This document shows positions 24,993 through 34,907 of a DNA stretch of 64,000 nucleotides, in pieces; positions within the stretch are counted from its first letter, which is position 1, and the number at the start of each line of letters is the position of its first letter. Origin of the DNA: Cupriavidus sp. P-10. Its GTDB lineage: Bacteria > Pseudomonadota > Gammaproteobacteria > Burkholderiales > Burkholderiaceae. The stretch is taken from the NCBI RefSeq assembly GCF_003402535.2, contig NZ_AP025170.1, positions 682,001-746,000 on the forward strand, given 5' to 3'. The position numbers and the translations under genes were made by a program. A model generated the notes under the pieces. It was given only the letters and a program-made list of their open reading frames with translations. It was not told where the DNA came from and did no database searches.

Positions 24993-25982
24993 ATGAACCG
25001 ACGCAGATGGTTGCAGGACCTGATCCCCGCCGCGATGGCGGCGTGCCTCGCCCCAAGGGTGTTCGCTCAAGCCGCGGCCCCTCCGGCGTGGCCATCGCGG
25101 CCGTTGCGGATGATCGTGCCGGGCGGCGCGGGCTCGGGCACCGACCTGATCGCCAGGGTGTTCGCCGAGCCGCTCGCGCGCGCGCTGCGGCAACCGGTCG
25201 TGGTGGAAAACCGCGCGGGCGCCAACGGCATCGTCGGCAACAACCTGGCGGCCAAGGCGGCACCCGACGGCTATACCATCCTCTTCAGCAACGCCTCCGC
25301 CATCGCAATCAACGCGGCCCTGCGCGACACCATGCCCTACGACACCCTCAGGGACCTCGCGCCGGTGATCCAGGTCAGCGCCGGCGGGGTGCTGCTGGTG
25401 GCGACGGCCGAGACCCCGGTGCGCGACCTCGCAGGCTTCGTCGAATACGTCCGCGCGCATCCCAACATTGCGTACGGCACCTGGGGCGTCGGCTCGACCG
25501 GACACCTGGCGATGGAAGCCATTGCCCGCGCGCGCGACCTGCGCATGCGGCATATCCCGTACAAGACCATGGGGCAACTGCTTACCGATCTGCAGGGCGG
25601 GGTCGTCAGCATTGCGTTCGTGGATGCACGCTCGCCGCTGTCGCTGATCCAGGCCGGCAAGCTGGTGCCGCTCGCCATGACCGGCACGCGGCGCTCGCCG
25701 ATGTTGCCGGAGGTGCGGACGCTGAAGCAGCAGGGCTTCGACCTGGATCTCGATGGCTGGTACGGCGTATTCGTTCCGGCGCATACGCCTGCCGGCATCG
25801 TGCTGCGGCTCAACGAGGAAATCGCCAGGGTGATGGTGGCGCCGGCATTGCAGGCCAGCTTCACGCAGCAGGGCTTGCTGTGGGTCGAGAAGAACTCGCC
25901 GGAACAGTTCGCGCGGGTGATCCAGAGCGATATCCGGGCGTGGAAAGCGCTGGCGACGACGGCGCGGATCCAGGTCGACTGA
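24993..25982 (+). CDS. Bug/TctC-family periplasmic solute receptor, possibly Tat-exported
   Basis: A 329-residue Bug receptor starting at ATG 24993, followed by three Arg (MNRRRWLQD), a pattern compatible with Tat export, and a leader ending near VFAQA. Family motifs: SRPLRMIVPGGAGSGTD, VVENRAGANGIVG, APDGYTIL, IPYKTMGQLLTDLQGG. Closely similar in design to the receptor at 20823. It is the third gene of the dioxygenase-SDR-Bug unit and is followed by a 10-bp-stem hairpin. Ligand unknown, probably the dioxygenase substrate. Confidence 0.9.
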   Translation: MNRRRWLQDLIPAAMAACLAPRVFAQAAAPPAWPSRPLRMIVPGGAGSGTDLIARVFAEPLARALRQPVVVENRAGANGIVGNNLAAKAAPDGYTILFSNASAIAINAALRDTMPYDTLRDLAPVIQVSAGGVLLVATAETPVRDLAGFVEYVRAHPNIAYGTWGVGSTGHLAMEAIARARDLRMRHIPYKTMGQLLTDLQGGVVSIAFVDARSPLSLIQAGKLVPLAMTGTRRSPMLPEVRTLKQQGFDLDLDGWYGVFVPAHTPAGIVLRLNEEIARVMVAPALQASFTQQGLLWVEKNSPEQFARVIQSDIRAWKALATTARIQVD

Positions 25983-25984
25983 GC

Positions 25985-26008
25985 AACGGTCCGCTACGGC
26001 GGACCGTT
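25985..26008 (+). terminator. Hairpin after the dioxygenase-SDR-Bug unit
   Basis: AACGGTCCGC (25985-25994) pairs perfectly with GCGGACCGTT (25999-26008) around a TACG loop, starting two bases after the Bug stop codon. Only three T residues follow, so termination strength is uncertain. Confidence 0.65.
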
Positions 26009-26096
26009 TGCTACGCGGCGGCGCGCGTAGGGTACAGCGCTTCGAGCGGCCGGCTCGCGCCGACAGACAGCGCCGCAGCGCGCGCTCCTGCGCATC

Positions 26097-26161
26097 TTTA
26101 TACGTTCTTTATACGCACCGATCACCTTTCTACCCGGTTTTTACGACCCCGTCGCTAAGCT
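26097..26161 (+). promoter_or_regulatory. kdp promoter with two 11-bp direct-repeat pairs (KdpE-like sites)
   Basis: TTTATACGT (26097) and TTTATACGC (26108) are 11 bases apart; TTTCTACCC (26127) and TTTTTACGA (26138) are again 11 bases apart. The last repeat ends nine bases before TAAGCT (26156), a possible -10. Direct repeats one helical turn apart that replace the -35 box are typical of OmpR-family activators such as KdpE. The TTTTTACGACCCCG part resembles the Escherichia coli KdpE site as I remember it. The same arrangement recurs before the porin gene and at 32271. Confidence 0.6.
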
Positions 26162-26192
26162 GCAAGGCGAAACCATTCAAAGGTGCTTTGTC

Positions 26193-26357
26193 ATGGACGG
26201 GATCTACTTGATCGTATTGATCGGCTTCGCGGTGCTGAGCGCAGCCCTGCTCGGGCTTTGCGCTGCGCTCGCGCCCAACGCGCCGGCACGCAGCGAACAC
26301 GGCGGCCCGCATCACCAGATGCCGGTAAAGAACAGCGCAACGGACAGGGGGTTGTGA
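26193..26357 (+). CDS. Small membrane protein encoded ahead of kdpF
   Basis: A 54-residue ORF, ATG 26193 to TGA 26355-26357. It has one hydrophobic segment of about 25 residues at the N-terminus ([18 protein letters not shown] onward) and a hydrophilic, His-containing tail. Its stop overlaps the kdpF start by one base (TGATG), so it is translationally coupled to the Kdp operon and is the first gene after the predicted promoter. A weak AAAGG lies about ten bases upstream of the start. I do not recognise a family; a KdpF-like or assembly role in the potassium pump is only suggested by position. Confidence 0.65.
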
Positions 26358-26446
26358 TGAGCTGGACGGACCTGTTGAGCGGCGCGCTGGCCGTTGCCAT
26401 TTTTGCCTACCTCCTCATTGCGTTGTTCCGGCCGGAGAAATTCTGA
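26357..26446 (+). CDS. kdpF: Potassium-transporting ATPase small subunit KdpF
   Basis: A 29-residue single-helix peptide, the same length as Escherichia coli KdpF, with a hydrophobic core [19 protein letters not shown] and the typical polar ending RPEKF. KdpF stabilises the KdpFABC complex in the membrane. Its ATG overlaps the stop of the 54-residue ORF and its TGA overlaps the kdpA ATG (TGATG at 26444-26448), an overlap pattern normal for this operon. Confidence 0.9.
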
Positions 26447-28266
26447 TGTCCTCCCAATTCGTGGGCCTGCTGGTCCTCTATCTCGCCGTCCTGCTGGCGT
26501 GCGCCCCTTTTCTCGGCCGCTATCTCCGGCGTGCGGTGGAGGACGGCAGCTATTCGCTGACCGCCTGGGGCCGTCCGCTGGAACGGGTGCTGTATCGACT
26601 GGGCGGCGTGCGTGCCGAGTCCGGGATGGGGTGGAAGCAGTACGCCATCGCGGTGCTGGCCTTCAACCTGCTTGGCGTGGTGGCGGTCTATGCGCTGCAG
26701 CGCGTGCAAGGCATGCTGCCATTGAACCCGCAAGGCTTCGGTGCCATTACGCCGGACTCGGCCTTCAACACGGCCATCAGCTTTGTCAGCAACACCAACT
26801 GGCAAGGCTATGCCGGCGAGTCGACCATGGGCTATCTGACCCAGATGCTCGCGCTCACCGTGCAGAATTTCCTGTCCGCGGCAACCGGCATCGCCGTGGT
26901 GTTTGCGCTGATCCGCGGCTTTGCGCGCCAGAGCGCCGCCACCATCGGCAACTTCTGGGTCGACATGACGCGGGTCACGCTGTACGTGCTGGCGCCGATC
27001 GCGACCGTGATTGCGCTGGCGCTGGTCAGCCAGGGCGTTATCCAGAATTTCGACGCCTACAAGGAAGCCAGCCTGGTCACGCCGGCCGAATACAGCCAGC
27101 CGAAGGTCGACGCGGCCGGGCAGCCGGTGCTCGATGCGCAAGGCAAGCCGGTGGCGGAAGACCTGAAGACCGACAAGCAGACGCTGGCGATGGGCCCGGT
27201 TGCCTCGCAGGAAGCCATCAAGATGCTGGGCACCAACGGCGGCGGCTTCTTCAATGCCAACTCGGCGCATCCGTTCGAAAACCCGAATGGCCTGGCCAAC
27301 CTCATCGAGATGCTGGCGATCTTCCTGATCCCGGCGGCGCTGTGCTTCACCTTTGGCGAGATGGTGGGAGACAGGCGACAGGGTGTGGCGGTGCTGGCTT
27401 CCATGACGGTCATTTTTGTCGCGATGGCCTGCGTGGCGGCGATGTCCGAGCAGATGGCCAATACGGCGCTGGCCGGGCTGCCGGTGGATCACGCCGCGTC
27501 GATGTGGCAGGCCGGCGGCAACATGGAAGGCAAGGAAACACGCTTCGGCATCGCGGCATCGGCACTGTTCGCCACCATCACGACGGCGGCATCGTGCGGC
27601 GCCGTCAACGCCATGCATGACTCCTTCACCGCCATCGGTGGCCTGGTGCCGATGCTGCTGATGCAGCTGGGCGAGGTGGTGTTTGGCGGCGTGGGTTCGG
27701 GGCTGTACGGCATGCTGGTCTACGCCGTGCTCGCGGTGTTTATCGCCGGCCTGATGATCGGCCGCACGCCGGAGTACCTCGGCAAGAAGATCGAAGTCTA
27801 CGAAATGAAGATGACGGCCGTGGCGATCCTGGTCACGCCGCTGCTGGTGCTGCTCGGCACGTCGGTGGCGGTGATGGCCGAGGCGGGGCGCGCCGGTGTG
27901 TTCAATCCCGGCACGCACGGCTTCTCCGAGATCCTGTATGCACTCTCGTCGGCGGCCAACAACAATGGCAGCGCCTTTGCGGGCCTGTCCGCCAACACGC
28001 CGTTCTACAACACGCTGCTGGCGGCGGCCATGTGGTTCGGCAGGTTCTGGATCATCATCCCGGTCCTTGCGCTGGCGGGCTCGCTGGCAGCCAAGAAGCG
28101 CGTCCCGGCGAGCGGCGGCACGATGCCGACGCACGGCCCGCTGTTTGTCGTCCTGCTGGTGGGCACGGTACTGCTGGTCGGTGCGCTGACCTATGTCCCG
28201 GCGCTGGCGCTGGGGCCGGTCGCCGAGCAGCTGCAGGGCACGGCGGCGGCAACGGTGGCCAGGTAA
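26446..28266 (+). CDS. kdpA: Potassium-transporting ATPase subunit A, K+-selective channel subunit
   Basis: A 606-residue membrane protein, somewhat longer than the 557 residues of Escherichia coli KdpA. Conserved pore-loop regions appear: [56 protein letters not shown] and [13 protein letters not shown], which in KdpA correspond to the four selectivity-filter repeats of a Trk/KtrB-like channel. KdpA takes up K+ from the periplasm and passes it to KdpB. The additional length is a hydrophilic insert near residues 205-245 (Gln/Lys/Asp-rich). The start overlaps kdpF; 104 bases separate it from kdpB. Confidence 0.97.
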
Positions 28267-28370
28267 ATCGACCTCTGACAAAAACATATCGAGCATTCCT
28301 GACACGTTCGGCCCCTGCACTGACTCGCCAATGCAGGTGCCGTCCGTCTCCAGCGGATTGCGGAGCAACC

Positions 28371-30593
28371 ATGCGACATGAATCGACGGCCCCGGTGGCC
28401 AAGGGCGGCGCCAACAGGACCGGCGCATCTGCCTCCAACACGCCTCAGGCGAAGAGCGCGCCGGTGTCGGACCGGCAACACGGTTCGCACCATCATCGCC
28501 CGCCAGCGCGCAGCATGTTCGCGCCGGAGCTGGTGAAGCCCGCGCTGGTCGCGGCCTTCAGGAAGCTGTCGCCGCGCGACCAGCTGCGCAACCCGGTGAT
28601 GTTCGTGGTCTACGCGGGCAGCATCCTGACGACCATTCTTTTCCTGAAGGCATTGGCCGCGCCGGCAGCCGCCGGTGGAGAATCCGCCGGCTTCATCCTG
28701 GCGGTTGCGGTGTGGCTCTGGTTCACGGTGCTGTTCGCAAACTTTGCCGAGGCGCTTGCCGAAGGCCGGAGCAAGCAACAGGCCGAGGCGCTGCGCGGCC
28801 TGAAGACCACTGTCACCGCGCGCGTGCTCAAGGACGGCAAGCGCGGCAGCGCCACCGAAGCGCGCCCAGCGACCGCGCTGCGACGCGGCGACGTGGTGCT
28901 CGTCGAGGCGGGCGAAATGATCCCGGGCGATGGCGAAGTGATCGACGGCGTGGCCTCGGTCGACGAAAGCGCCATCACGGGCGAATCGGCGCCGGTGATC
29001 CGCGAGTCGGGCGGTGACTTCTCGTCGGTGACCGGCGGTACGCGCGTGCTGTCCGACTGGATCGTGGTGCGCGTCACGACCAACCCCGGCGAAAGCTTCA
29101 TCGACCGCATGATCACGATGGTCGAAGGCGCCAAGCGGCAGAAGACGCCGAACGAACTGGCCCTGACGATCCTGCTGGTGGGGCTGACCATCGTGCTTCT
29201 GCTGGCCACGGCCACGCTGCAGCCGTTCTCGCTCTACAGCGTCCTGGTGGCCAAGGCGGGCGTGCCGGTCACGATCACCGTGCTGGTGGCGCTGCTGGTG
29301 TGCCTGATCCCGACCACGATCGGCGGGCTGCTTTCCGCGATTGGCGTGGCCGGCATGAGCCGGATGATGGAAGCAAACGTGATCGCCACCTCGGGCCGGG
29401 CTGTAGAAGCCGCCGGCGACGTAGACGTGCTGCTGCTCGACAAGACCGGCACCATCACCCATGGCAACCGCCAGGCCTCGCGCTTCATTCCGGCGCCGGG
29501 CGTGTCGCCGTTGCAGCTCGCGGAAGCGGCGTGGCTGTCGTCGCTGGCCGACGAAACGCCGGAAGGGCGCAGCATCATCACGCTGGCCCGCCAGTTGCCG
29601 GGGGTGACCGCGCCGGCGATGGCAAGCCTGAAGCCGGAGTTCGTGCCGTTCAGTGCGCAGACCCGCATGAGCGGAGTGGATCTGCGCGATGACGGCGGCG
29701 AGCGTCACGTGCGCAAGGGTGCCGCGGCTGCCGTGCGCCGGTACGTCACGGAACGCGCCGGCAAGTTTCCCGATGCGGTATTGCAGGCCGTCGATGAGGT
29801 CGCCCGTGCCGGCAGCACGCCACTGGTGGTTGCCGACGCCAACGGCGATTCGGTGCGCGTGCTTGGCGTGATCGAGCTGAAGGACATCGTCAAGACCGGC
29901 ATTCGCGAGCGCTTCGGCGAACTGCGCAGGATGGGCATCAAGACGGTGATGATCACCGGCGACAACCGGCTGACGGCGGCGTCGATCGCAGCGGAAGCAG
30001 GCGTTGACGACTTCCTGGCCGAAGCCACGCCGGAGGCCAAGCTCAAGCTGATCCGCGAGTACCAGGCAGAAGGGCGGCTCGTCGCGATGACCGGCGATGG
30101 CACCAACGACGCCCCCGCGCTCGCCCAGGCCGACGTGGCCGTGGCGATGAACAGCGGTACGCAGGCGGCCAAGGAGGCCGGCAACATGGTCGACCTGGAC
30201 AGCAACCCGACCAAGCTGATCGAGATTGTCGAGATCGGCAAGCAGATGCTGATGACGCGCGGCTCGCTGACGACCTTCAGCGTGGCCAACGACATCGCCA
30301 AGTATTTCGCGATCATCCCGGCGGCCTTTGCCACCACGTATCCGCAGCTCAACCTGCTCAACGTGATGGGGCTGGCCACGCCGGCGTCGGCCATCATGTC
30401 GGCGGTGATCTTCAACGCGCTGATCATCGTCGTGCTGATCCCGCTGGCGCTCAAGGGCGTGGTCTACCGTCCGCTGGGCGCCGCGGTGCTGCTGCGCCGC
30501 AACCTGCTGATCTACGGCCTTGGCGGCATCCTGGTGCCGTTTGCCGGCATCAAGCTGATCGACATGATCCTGGCCCTGTTCGGCTGGGTCTGA
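28371..30593 (+). CDS. kdpB: Potassium-transporting P-type ATPase subunit B
   Basis: A 740-residue P-type ATPase that hydrolyses ATP for the Kdp pump. Asp357 in [14 protein letters not shown] is the phosphorylated residue; TGES in the actuator domain, the KGA region of the nucleotide domain, and [12 protein letters not shown] in the P-domain are intact. ATG 28371 with GGAG upstream was chosen; it gives an N-terminal extension of about 48 residues, basic and with a short His cluster (HGSHHH), before the usual KdpB start around [12 protein letters not shown]. An alternative start at 28515 has no ribosome site. The extension is unusual and may be regulatory or a start misjudgement. Confidence 0.95.
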
Positions 30594-30600
30594 TTCGCTT

Positions 30601-30624
30601 CTCTCTCTCTCTCTCTCTCTCTCT
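30601..30624 (+). repeat. (CT)12 dinucleotide tract between kdpB and kdpC
   Basis: Twelve perfect CT units at 30601-30624, in the 56-base gap between the kdpB stop and the kdpC start, 25 bases ahead of the ATG. The tract is fully pyrimidine on the coding strand and could vary by slippage, changing the spacing around kdpC translation initiation. Confidence 0.95.
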
Positions 30625-30649
30625 ACCCCTTCTACGATTCGGAGCATTC

Positions 30650-31273
30650 ATGAATACGCAAGTGCAGTCCCGGCAGCCGTCTCCGGCACCCGTGCAGGGT
30701 GGCTTGTTGCGGCCAATGCTGGTGGTGTTCGTCGGCCTTTCGCTGGTGACTGGTCTGCTGTATCCCGGCGTGATCACGGCCATCTCCAAAGCCGTGTTCC
30801 CCCATCAGGCAGGCGGCTCGCTCATCGAGAAGGATGGCAAGGTGGTTGGCTCGGAACTGATCGGCCAGCCGTTCTCCGACCCGAAGTACTTCTGGGGCCG
30901 GCTGTCCGCCACCGCACCGATGCCGTATAACGGCGCGGCTTCGGTGGGGTCCAACCTCGGGCCCGCCAATCCGGCGCTGACCGACGCCGCTCGCGCGCGC
31001 GTCGACGCACTGCACGCCGCAGATCCGGACAATCAGGCGCCGGTTCCCGTGGATCTGGTGACGGCATCCGGCAGCGGGCTCGACCCGCACATCAGCCCCG
31101 CGGCCGCCGAATACCAGGTGGCGCGCGTCGCCCGCGTCAGGGGGATTCCGATCGAACAGGTGAAGCAGCTGGTTGCCGCACACACGGAAGCGCCGCTGCT
31201 GCCAGTGCTGGGGGACCCGGGCGTCAATGTCTTGAAGCTGAACCTTGCGTTGGATGCCATCGCACGGAAGTAG
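30650..31273 (+). CDS. kdpC: Potassium-transporting ATPase subunit C
   Basis: A 207-residue protein with one N-terminal transmembrane helix (about residues 20-42) and a periplasmic domain. Recognisable KdpC segments are [33 protein letters not shown] and the C-terminal [23 protein letters not shown] (only partly quoted by motif here: [16 protein letters not shown]). KdpC has been proposed to raise the K+ affinity of the complex. Start ATG 30650 follows CGGAGC. It closes the operon before a hairpin; no kdpD or kdpE gene follows within the window. Confidence 0.95.
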
Positions 31274-31298
31274 CACGGTGCCGCGTGCGTGCCACGAC

Positions 31299-31322
31299 GC
31301 CGCCGCGCAGAGGCGCGGCGGC
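31299..31322 (+). terminator. Hairpin after kdpC
   Basis: GCCGCCGCGC (31299-31308) pairs perfectly with GCGCGGCGGC (31313-31322) around an AGAG loop, 25 bases after the kdpC stop. No T-run follows, so it may act as a pause or with Rho. Confidence 0.6.
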
Positions 31323-31382
31323 ACTGGCCTGCCCGCGCGAAATCCCGGCACCTTTATCGAATTTGCACACGGACGCTGCAGC

Positions 31383-31417
31383 TTTTGATGCCGTTTTTAC
31401 GCGTCAGTCCATATCGT
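31383..31417 (+). promoter_or_regulatory. Porin promoter with 11-bp direct repeat like that of kdp
   Basis: TTTTGATGC (31383) and TTTTTACGC (31394) lie 11 bases apart, followed nine bases later by TATCGT (31412) as a possible -10; the porin ATG is at 31468. The GTTTTTACG core is shared with the kdp promoter, and a CTTTAT element lies 41 bases before it in both. Suggests the same OmpR-family activator. Confidence 0.55.
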
Positions 31418-31467
31418 GGCGAGGCTCCCGGTAACGGGGGATTCCTTCAACTCTCGTCGCATCAACA

Positions 31468-32247
31468 ATGACTGACCTGCGCCATACCGCGGCCGTGCTG
31501 CTCGCATGTTCCGCATCTTCCATCCTTGCCTTCACTGCCATGCCCGCCATGGCGCAATCCCAGCCTGACGCCGAGCCGTCTGCGCATACGCTCACGGCCA
31601 ACCTCTCGATCGCCACCGACTACCGCTACCGCGGTCTGATGCAGACGAACCGCCGGCCGGCGATTCAGGGCGGGTTCGACTACAGCCATGCGAGTGGGTT
31701 CTACCTCGGCAACTGGAATTCGAGCATCAGCTGGCTGGGAGACAGCAATCCCGAGGTGTCGGCCCCGATCGAGATGGATTTCTACGGCGGCTACAAGAAT
31801 ACGTTCGGTGGCGACTGGACCTACGATCTCGGCATGCTGCAGTACTACTACCCGGGCGACTACCCGGCGAACTACACGCGCCCGTACACCACCGAGGTGT
31901 ACGCGGCCCTGGGCTACGGTCCGGTGACGCTCAAGTACTCGTACGCCCCGACCAATCTCTTTGGCTTCGCCGACAGCAGGCACAGCTGGTACGTAGACCT
32001 GACCGCCAACGTGCCGCTCAATGTCTGGGACCTTACGCTGAACACCCATGTGGGTTACCAGAAGGTGCAGGTCGCCAATGCATCGTATATGGACTGGAAG
32101 ATCGGCCTGACCAAGGACCTGGGCAAGGGATTCGCGCTGGCCGTGGCCTACATCGACACCAATGCCGACAAGGCGGTGTACACCAATGCCAGGGGCCGCT
32201 ACATGGGCCGTGGCACCGCATGGGCTTCCTTGACGAAGACGTTCTGA
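31468..32247 (+). CDS. TorF-family putative porin (TIGR02001 type)
   Basis: A 259-residue outer-membrane protein. The signal peptide ends near PAMAQS (about residue 30). The mature part starts with TANLSIATDYRYRGLMQT, the hallmark of the TIGR02001/TorF family, and shows alternating aromatic beta-strands (FDYSHASGFYLGNWNSSI, WTYDLGMLQYYYPGDY) with a terminal Phe as required for Bam assembly. Cargo is unknown for the family. Its promoter shares the direct-repeat pattern of the kdp promoter, so a role in potassium-limited or osmotic conditions is suggested. Start ATG 31468 has only weak ribosome-site sequence. Confidence 0.85.
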   Translation: MTDLRHTAAVLLACSASSILAFTAMPAMAQSQPDAEPSAHTLTANLSIATDYRYRGLMQTNRRPAIQGGFDYSHASGFYLGNWNSSISWLGDSNPEVSAPIEMDFYGGYKNTFGGDWTYDLGMLQYYYPGDYPANYTRPYTTEVYAALGYGPVTLKYSYAPTNLFGFADSRHSWYVDLTANVPLNVWDLTLNTHVGYQKVQVANASYMDWKIGLTKDLGKGFALAVAYIDTNADKAVYTNARGRYMGRGTAWASLTKTF

Positions 32248-32270
32248 GCGCGCGTGGCCGGCGCTGCCGA

Positions 32271-32304
32271 TTTTGATGCGGATTTAATGCGTCGGCCTTA
32301 TCTC
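32271..32304 (+). promoter_or_regulatory. Third direct-repeat promoter, downstream of the porin gene
   Basis: TTTTGATGC (32271) and ATTTAATGC (32282) lie 11 bases apart, with TATCTC (32299) eight bases after the second. The 23-base block 32271-32293 matches the porin block 31383-31405 at 19 positions. It points rightwards into a leader and a small zinc-ribbon ORF. Confidence 0.5.
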
Positions 32305-32501
32305 CTTACATCAAATTTAGACGGCGCTGGCTAGCATGAGGGCATGTTCAACACGTGACCCGCAAGCGCGGGTTCATCCCAACATGCGATAGTCAAGCCT
32401 GGCCCGTTGATGCTGGAGGAGGCCATTGCCCTGCTTCCTCAGCCATCCGTGGCGCGGGATGAGCATCTGGCAGCCTGAAAGTCCTGCCTGTCGAGACGAC
32501 G

Positions 32502-32696
32502 ATGAAACCCCCTGTCCCACTCTTCTTCACCTGCGCGGTGTGCGGGCACGTTCACTCCGAGACCTTGCAGGATCTGGTCTCGGGGAAGGCGCCGCGGCCG
32601 CTGACTTGTCCTGCCTGCCACCGCGAGCTGGGCATCGACTGGGGCTGGGTCACTGACCAGGCGGCCCAGCCAGGGCTCATCTCCACAGAGCGGTAG
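32502..32696 (+). CDS. Small zinc-ribbon protein, function unknown
   Basis: A 64-residue ORF starting at ATG 32502. Two CxxC pairs (Cys11/Cys14 in FFTCAVCGHVH and Cys36/Cys39 in LTCPACHREL) spaced about 22 residues apart form a probable zinc ribbon; His residues follow the first pair. The rest is hydrophilic with no signal or membrane segment. The conserved-looking Cys spacing in a GC-rich genome makes a real protein likely, although the ribosome site is weak. It lies between the third KdpE-like promoter and the groES promoter. Function unknown. Confidence 0.6.
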   Translation: MKPPVPLFFTCAVCGHVHSETLQDLVSGKAPRPLTCPACHRELGIDWGWVTDQAAQPGLISTER

Positions 32697-32765
32697 GGCA
32701 CTCGCCCGTACCGCCTGCTCCCACCCCGATCGCCCGTCCGGGAAAACCCCCATAAAGCCGCTGTC

Positions 32766-32820
32766 TTGAAATGGCCATACCCCGTCCCTATAATTAGCAC
32801 TCGTCGGGGGTGAGTGCTAA
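32766..32820 (+). promoter_or_regulatory. groESL promoter with CIRCE operator
   Basis: TTGAAA (32766-32771) and TATAAT (32789-32794) with 17 bases between form a near-perfect sigma-70 promoter. It overlaps a perfect CIRCE element: TTAGCACTC (32794-32802), nine-base spacer, GAGTGCTAA (32812-32820). HrcA repression of groESL is therefore expected. I saw no well-spaced sigma-32 promoter. Confidence 0.95.
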
Positions 32821-32924
32821 CAGCATCAAGTGCCCCTTGCGACACCTGAACATTTCAGACGGCCGTCGCCTCGGTAGCCGGCCGATTTGTGATCGAAAAC
32901 TCACTTTTGTATCTAGGAGTCCGT

Positions 32925-33215
32925 ATGAACCTGCGTCCTCTGCACGACCGCGTGATCGTGAAGCGTCTGGACAACGAAACCAAGACCGCGTCCGGTATCG
33001 TGATTCCCGACAACGCTGCCGAGAAGCCCGATCAAGGCGAAGTGCTGGCGATTGGTCCCGGCAAGAAGGATGACAAGGGCAACAACATTGCCCTGGACGT
33101 CAAGGTCGGCGATCGCGTGCTGTTCGGCAAGTATGCCGGCCAGGGCGTGAAGGTGGATGGCCAGGAACTGCTGGTCATGCGCGAAGAAGACATCATGGCC
33201 GTGGTCAACAAGTAA
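32925..33215 (+). CDS. groES: Co-chaperonin GroES
   Basis: A 96-residue protein matching GroES throughout: [16 protein letters not shown] at the start, the mobile loop [30 protein letters not shown], and the [11 protein letters not shown] end. It caps the GroEL cylinder. The ATG at 32925 follows TAGGAGTCC; an upstream in-frame start at 32889 lies in the leader and is rejected. It is 104 bases downstream of the CIRCE operator and 48 bases ahead of groEL, with which it is co-transcribed. Confidence 0.98.

Positions 33216-34907
<1,692 letters not shown>

Follow-up and report, generated by a model that had tools for sequence, protein, structure and literature searches.

Candidate KdpE-type promoters of the kdp operon and an adjoining TorF-family porin in Cupriavidus sp. 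P-10

Could a porin gene that adjoins the kdp operon belong to the same potassium-limitation regulon as the Kdp pump itself? The question is raised by Cupriavidus sp. P-10 (genome, 9.08 Mb), in a 64,000-nucleotide stretch of contig NZ_AP025170.1 (positions 682,001 to 746,000), hereafter the window. Here, the gene order is a 54-aa open reading frame (ORF), kdpF, kdpA, kdpB, kdpC, a porin of the TorF/Gcw_chp family, a zinc-ribbon-like ORF and groES, and the nearest kdp loci are those of other Cupriavidus. A sequence-only reading of the window had reported paired half-sites with an 11-bp period at three places and had proposed that a KdpE-type activator links the porin to potassium limitation. 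We consider it probable, judging from the comparative evidence given below, that kdpFABC, the distant kdpDE genes, the porin and, in relatives, an operon of orf127 (127 aa) and a DHDPS-family gene make up one KdpE regulon with its own pore. Among the open-licence papers listed in our searches, we found no report of KdpE-type control of a TorF/Gcw_chp porin, or of a kdp-linked porin.

Paired half-sites and the KdpE operator

Direct reading of the window located all four of the pairs reported, two before kdp, one before the porin and one after it, each with half-sites 11 bp apart (Table 1). The element CTTTAT was likewise present 41 bases ahead of GTTTTTACG before both kdp (26096/26137) and the porin (31352/31393). 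A −10-like hexamer had been reported at each of the three places. Those at kdp (TAAGCT) and at the porin (TATCGT) hold, each set 9 bases behind the 9-base second half-site. At the third site, the hexamer TTATCT near 32298 is not conserved and CTAGCAT at 32331–32337 is conserved instead.

How often would such pairs arise by chance? On both strands of the window, TTTNNAY-N4-TTTNNAY matched three times (26097, 26127 and 31383), where 100 dinucleotide shuffles averaged 0.01, and TTTNNAY-N5-TTNNAYG matched exactly the four pairs (shuffle mean 0.07, maximum 1). None of the 100 shuffles equalled the observed count for either pattern, both of which were composed after the sites had been seen. Genome-wide, the looser second pattern gave 20 matches, compared with 13 for a reversed control. 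Five of the 20 are accounted for by the window pairs and by a pair upstream of kdpD; given the control count, the remaining 15 may be mostly chance matches. The pattern TTTTGATGCNGNTTTNAYGC, derived from the sites, matched exactly at just two places in the genome, the porin site and the third site.

The E. coli KdpE operator reads TTTATA-N5-TTTACA and is contacted by R193, R200 and T215 (PMC3264566, accessible portion). We observed that the distal kdp pair, TTTATA-N5-TTTATA, is a site of this kind; the proximal kdp pair and the porin pair fit the operator nearly as well, and the third pair only loosely. The kdpDE genes are absent from the window. A single KdpD was found genome-wide, at C1:365561 (343 kb from kdpFABC), and KdpE comes after it. 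This KdpE (L005 11373-12065), orthologous to that of E. coli, matches 4kny at 7.5e-93 and keeps the equivalents of all three contact residues in an alignment whose numbering was worked out by hand. The likeness of the half-sites to a KdpE site, as claimed in the sequence-only reading, was borne out for the two tandem kdp pairs. T-rich direct repeats, an 11-bp period and a position before kdp are shared with the E. coli operator. On the other hand, two pairs stand in tandem here at a distance of 30 bp, with the downstream one immediately ahead of the −10 element, and the targets would extend to the porin, the distant kdpDE and, in relatives, orf127-DHDPS.

Aligned tandem pairs, some with degenerate half-sites, precede kdp in 25 of the 26 Cupriavidus-group loci (L006–L031; L017 has no row) as well as in the window and before kdpD. 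The kdpD promoter (L005 7840-8330; dual score 52.5) closely duplicates that of kdp, with both pairs, a −10 element and the opening codons of the 54-aa ORF. Because kdpDE accompanies kdpFABC in 25 of 26 Cupriavidus-group loci (the exception, L007, is on a contig that runs on into groES), this promoter looks like a copy made when the kdp operon split. Just upstream of it, on the opposite strand, we noted a reading frame that reads as ArsR-like.

How might KdpE act at these sites? Under potassium limitation, KdpD would phosphorylate KdpE, dimers of which would bind the 11-bp direct repeats, often at two tandem pairs with a 30-bp offset. The last half-site ends 9 bases before the −10 element, and KdpE would bring in RNA polymerase where a −35 box would otherwise do so. 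PhoB works with a comparable geometry, in that its pho boxes are 11-bp direct repeats that replace the −35 box about 10 bases before the −10 element. By analogy with PhoB, activation by phosphorylated KdpE from a −35-replacing position is plausible, although the half-site sequence and the signal differ.

The porin promoter near to and away from kdp

To score the sites, we used a matrix of the 20-bp pair trained solely on kdp promoters (52 kdp pairs, both window pairs among them). Its best matches in the window were the two training pairs, followed by the non-training porin pair (Table 1); the next scored 10.0. In all seven Cupriavidus sequences compared, each with an intact kdp-adjacent porin, the best site lay 83–90 bp before the porin start, with scores of 16.6 in the window, 13.8 in L006, 13.1 in L013, 11.7 in L031, 10.9 in L020, 3.9 in L008 and −1.5 in L012. 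Among 100,000 random 200-bp windows, none reached 16.6, 0.039% reached 10.9, and the 95% point was −2.2. The best score upstream of a paralogous porin linked to amtB was −10.6. Furthermore, alignment of the intergenic regions showed that the kdp and porin pairs have been conserved rather than lost in relatives, the porin pair together with its spacing and TATCGTG.

Does the site persist where the porin is separated from kdp? Forty genomes of the genus were searched, and 29 best porin matches were given loci and scored in 260-bp windows. Eleven of these lie within 12 kb of kdpA, with the best site 74–108 bp upstream (scores from 16.6 to −0.8). The other 18 comprise two of the amtB type, which carry a sigma-54-like motif, and 16 unlinked loci; in eight of the latter, kdpA is far off on the same contig, and two (L135 and L153) lie near contig ends, so that kdp linkage is possible there. 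Eleven of the 16 score at least 0.8, the pair can be seen by eye in 15 (all except L155), and orf127 and DHDPS follow the porin in 10. Since the pair persists at unlinked porin loci, most of these genomes retain the site in trans. In four of the six 18-kb flanks of unlinked loci that we inspected, pntAB-like genes lie on one side of the cluster and an mnmA-like gene on the other (names by reading).

The kdp-only matrix was then applied as a tandem scan, requiring two pairs 30 bp apart scoring above 14, over 3.15 million positions of loci on both strands. There were 28 peaks at training promoters and 47 elsewhere: 35 before kdpA, 1 before kdpD, 9 before orf127, ParA-porin, porin or DHDPS genes and 2 others (Table 1). 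The background was one match in 8.2 million positions of block shuffles, and 9 of 20,000 random 500-bp windows away from kdp, porin and orf127-type genes contained a match. Porin or orf127 clusters with full kdp-type tandem pairs occur in Polaromonas, Massilia, Rugamonas, Undibacterium and Herbaspirillum. A gene that reads as a ParA-like ATPase (about 207 aa) intervenes between the tandem sites and the porin in Massilia, Pseudoduganella and Rugamonas. Taken together, the conservation, the kdp-only matrix, the tandem sites in other genera and the persistence at unlinked loci argue for the proposal that a KdpE-type activator controls the porin and that the porin probably belongs to the potassium-limitation regulon.

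Several observations weigh against this reading. The sensitivity of the tandem scan is limited: 35 of 54 kdpA upstream regions in non-Cupriavidus loci pass the threshold and 19 have no such site. In five of these 19, of Roseateles type (L032, L033, L034, L037 and L044), the porin adjoins kdp, and the locus holds no above-threshold tandem site. The porin sites of L008 and L012 are weak and not significant alone, and the third site scores only 0.5. In Cupriavidus sp. LEh25 (L007 14780-15090), groES directly follows kdpFABC, and both the porin and the third site are lacking. When 60 genomes were sampled evenly across the order, TorF and kdp lay within 10 kb of each other in only 3 of the 13 that have both. 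The nearest solved folds to the porin, KdgM and NanC, are acidic-sugar pores. Finally, the porin and third half-sites drift towards TTGATGC/GATTTGATGC, which leaves room for another OmpR-family regulator and is our main doubt.

Could such a second regulator, with the half-site TTGATGC and a signal such as low osmolarity or envelope stress, drive the porin and orf127-DHDPS while KdpE acts only at kdp? The unlinked Cupriavidus porin half-sites, which read TTGAYGC/GATTTGATGC and have low kdp-matrix scores, would suit it, as would the score of the third site. It does not sit well with the full kdp-type tandem pairs at the porin and orf127 clusters of the five other genera. In addition, queries with KdpE and KdpD found no relative among the ORFs chosen from the six 18-kb flanks of unlinked clusters, so no local regulator is on offer. 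We therefore regard a second regulator as unlikely and favor control by KdpE.

The third site and the orf127-DHDPS operon

The pair after the porin had been read as the promoter of a third transcript. The site is real, and in relatives it precedes the orf127-DHDPS operon; in this genome, the operon is dead, and the −10 element probably lies elsewhere than was thought. In L006, L008 and L020, the same pair follows the porin and is itself followed by orf127 and a DHDPS-family gene (PF00701, 3.4e-59 in L020). L012 and L031 have a diverged pair ahead of these genes, and L013 lacks the region. The sequence CTAGCAT, 9 bases after AATTTAGAC, is identical in the window and five relatives, that is, in all aligned sequences having the region. 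What is left in the window is a stretch with 81% identity over 161 aligned bases (promoter and orf127 start), then 27 bases of the DHDPS end. We rejected the idea that the third site serves the zinc-ribbon ORF alone, as it precedes orf127-DHDPS in L008 and L020.

Other deletions were also seen. A protein of Cupriavidus sp. TA19 (P0038) reads as orf127 fused to the end of DHDPS, a shorter deletion, and genome G091 (L130 after 2280), with a window-like kdpFABC-porin order, has a different, larger deletion that starts just after the pair. The porin promoter of G091 is intact (16.6) despite the loss of its orf127-DHDPS operon.

Is the porin pair perhaps a functionless remnant, a chance or neutral leftover of promoter duplication in the kdp region? 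Promoter copies do arise here, as the kdpD promoter shows. However, the observed pair count was beyond every shuffle, the pair is kept in all seven linked loci and most unlinked ones, and in both the window and G091 the porin promoter has stayed intact where the third operon has decayed. A neutral origin is consequently very improbable, and a functional, KdpE-type site remains our preferred reading of the porin pair.

What might orf127 be? None of the Pfam families matched its L020 protein with an E value of 0.1 or below. Membership of the P-II family was considered and dropped on sequence grounds, there being no P-II profile match and only an unrelated best PDB sequence match (E 0.36). The core is predicted to be ferredoxin-like, with CutA, LarC2 and GlnK tied as structural matches. 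A search of 6,928 ORFs, from kdp-selected loci together with L004 and L005, with a model of the Cupriavidus members brought up relatives in Rugamonas (1.5e-8 and 4.3e-7), Gallionella (9.6e-6) and an Oxalobacteraceae genome (0.0024); a Polaromonas ORF at 0.065 is at noise level. Because these loci were chosen for kdpA, the nearness of the relatives to kdp does not count as independent support for linkage, whereas their position behind tandem sites does.

The porin, its paralogue and the possible cargo

The window porin matches TIGR02001 with 224 bits (cut-off 47) and PF09694 with 262 (cut-off 24). It is predicted to form a 12-stranded barrel (pLDDT 89.4), and its terminal F259 is invariant in 34 sequences. 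In both the family match and the 12 predicted strands, it resembles the outer-membrane pores of TCDB 1.B.71 (Pfam Gcw_chp), for which the table in the accessible part of PMC4827864 gives neither regulator nor cargo. The amtB-linked paralogue (C1:278817; 69% to the window porin) lies ahead of glnK-amtB, an arrangement found in 35 of 54 TorF matches, which are on the same strand as amtB and 462–983 bp away. The promoter of the paralogue carries TGGCACG-N4-TTGCA, which we take to be a sigma-54-like motif.

TorF is present in 32 of the 80 KdpA-nearest loci, in several arrangements. The neighbor counts use kdpA matches above the cut-off; the G026 fragment, the sub-cut-off G018 match and 36 AmtB rows were left out, and these add no neighbor. 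General linkage of TorF and kdp across the order was rejected on the count of 3 in 13, the linkage being lineage-limited. A single origin of the kdp-linked porins finds no support either, since the tree shows seven label changes, at least five of them forced by well supported branches. In two relatives, the porins are chimeric, with a kdp-type promoter and signal peptide and an amtB-type barrel (L006 18577-19461 and L008 14861-15703), as if they had arisen by gene conversion.

NlmA, from the nlmA-glnK-amtB operon of Herbaspirillum seropedicae, is described in the accessible part of PMC3023670 as membrane-associated and made under limitation of the cation that the neighboring transporter takes up; from the gene order, we infer that it is a TorF porin. 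Like NlmA, the window porin is encoded beside a small-cation transporter; unlike it, the window porin adjoins kdp rather than glnK-amtB and has KdpE-type sites.

What would the pore carry? Once made, the porin would form a pore in the outer membrane through which the Kdp pump is supplied, and the paralogue may likewise supply ammonium ahead of AmtB. We conjecture that the cargo is K+ or similar small cations. Alternatively, within the same regulon, the pore could carry an organic solute, an acidic sugar or osmolyte that replaces K+ as the cytoplasmic solute and on which the DHDPS-type aldolase acts. We hold this to be possible but doubtful: the paralogue before glnK-amtB and the exchange of barrels are easier to understand for small cations, and the similarity of small-barrel folds says little on cargo. 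Keeping to small cations, we may picture TorF porins as dedicated doors in the outer membrane for small monovalent cations, each run by its partner system, NtrC/sigma-54 with GlnK-AmtB for ammonium and KdpE with Kdp for potassium, with barrels swapped by gene conversion and orf127 (CutA/P-II-like, behind KdpE-type sites) as the potassium-side counterpart of GlnK. This broader picture is speculative, and we think it improbable as a whole.

The passage of K+ across the outer membrane is usually taken as non-limiting, as general porins pass ions. If the proposed regulon is correct, K+ scavenging can need an outer-membrane step of its own, and a large outer-membrane family of unknown function gains a regulator and a nutrient context. 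The paralogous barrels in one cell, one apparently under nitrogen control and the other under potassium control, would offer a natural comparison. In Collimonas, Kdp genes are up in nutrient-poor medium, and the accessible text does not name a kdp-linked porin (PMC12542777); the accessible portions of PMC12117332 and PMC13303613 add nothing on regulation.

Table 1. Features of the kdp-porin region of the window, and tandem-scan peaks in other loci (L).
Feature	Position or locus	Strand	Basis or remark
Distal KdpE-type pair, kdp promoter (TTTATACGT-N2-TTTATACGC)	26097..26116 (half-sites 26097/26108)	+	matrix training site, score 30.7
Proximal KdpE-type pair, kdp promoter (TTTCTACCC/TTTTTACGA), 30 bp after distal pair	26127..26146 (half-sites 26127/26138)	+	training site, score 26.1
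−10 hexamer TAAGCT, kdp promoter	26156..26161	+	similar in relatives
54-aa ORF, before kdpF	26193..26357	+	present likewise in Cupriavidus-group loci
kdpF	26357..26446	+	PF09604, 3.4e-9
kdpA	26446..28266	+	TIGR00680, 777 bits
kdpB (start approximate)	28371..30593	+	named by reading and place; matches kdpB in relatives
kdpC	30650..31273	+	named by place and matches in relatives
TTTATC, weak distal half-site, porin promoter, 30 bp before proximal pair	31353..31358	+	similar in several relatives; partner half-site degenerate
KdpE-type pair, porin promoter (TTTTGATGC-N2-TTTTTACGC)	31383..31402 (half-sites 31383/31394)	+	matrix 16.6, alignment, unlinked loci
−10 hexamer TATCGT, porin promoter	31412..31417	+	conserved in 7/7 aligned sequences
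TorF/Gcw_chp family porin, predicted 12-stranded barrel	31468..32247	+	profile matches, structure prediction
Pair of third promoter (TTTTGATGC-N2-ATTTAATGC), distal element	32271..32290 (half-sites 32271/32282)	+	kdp-matrix score only 0.5
Half-site-like CCTTACAT / AATTTAGAC, proposed proximal element, third promoter	32303..32322	+	conserved in six sequences; assignment inferred
Likely −10 TAGCAT, third promoter	32332..32337	+	identical in six sequences
orf127-DHDPS operon remnant: orf127 start, stop at codon 3, then DHDPS end	32384..32478	+	
64-aa zinc-ribbon-like ORF	32502..32696	+	weak matches below cut-offs; downstream of DHDPS in L008, L020
Tandem peaks before orf127-type genes (4)	L045, L050, L075, L080		
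Tandem peaks before ParA-like gene then porin (2)	L069, L070		
Tandem peaks directly before porin (2)	L040, L078		
Tandem peak before DHDPS gene (1)	L050		
Tandem peaks without recognised gene behind (2)	L065 15416; L035 14624		L065, contig ends soon after; L035, unknown ORFs before kdpD
ParA-like ATPase	L069 8087-8710, L070 6385-7008; also L050, L080		

An Rfam scan of 25000-33300 gave three matches, every one far under the gathering score, and hence no known RNA element in that range. The 54-aa ORF had no Pfam match above the cut-off. Its first codons are repeated before kdpD at L005 8350-8390, and it is possibly a small membrane protein or a leader peptide of the Kdp system.

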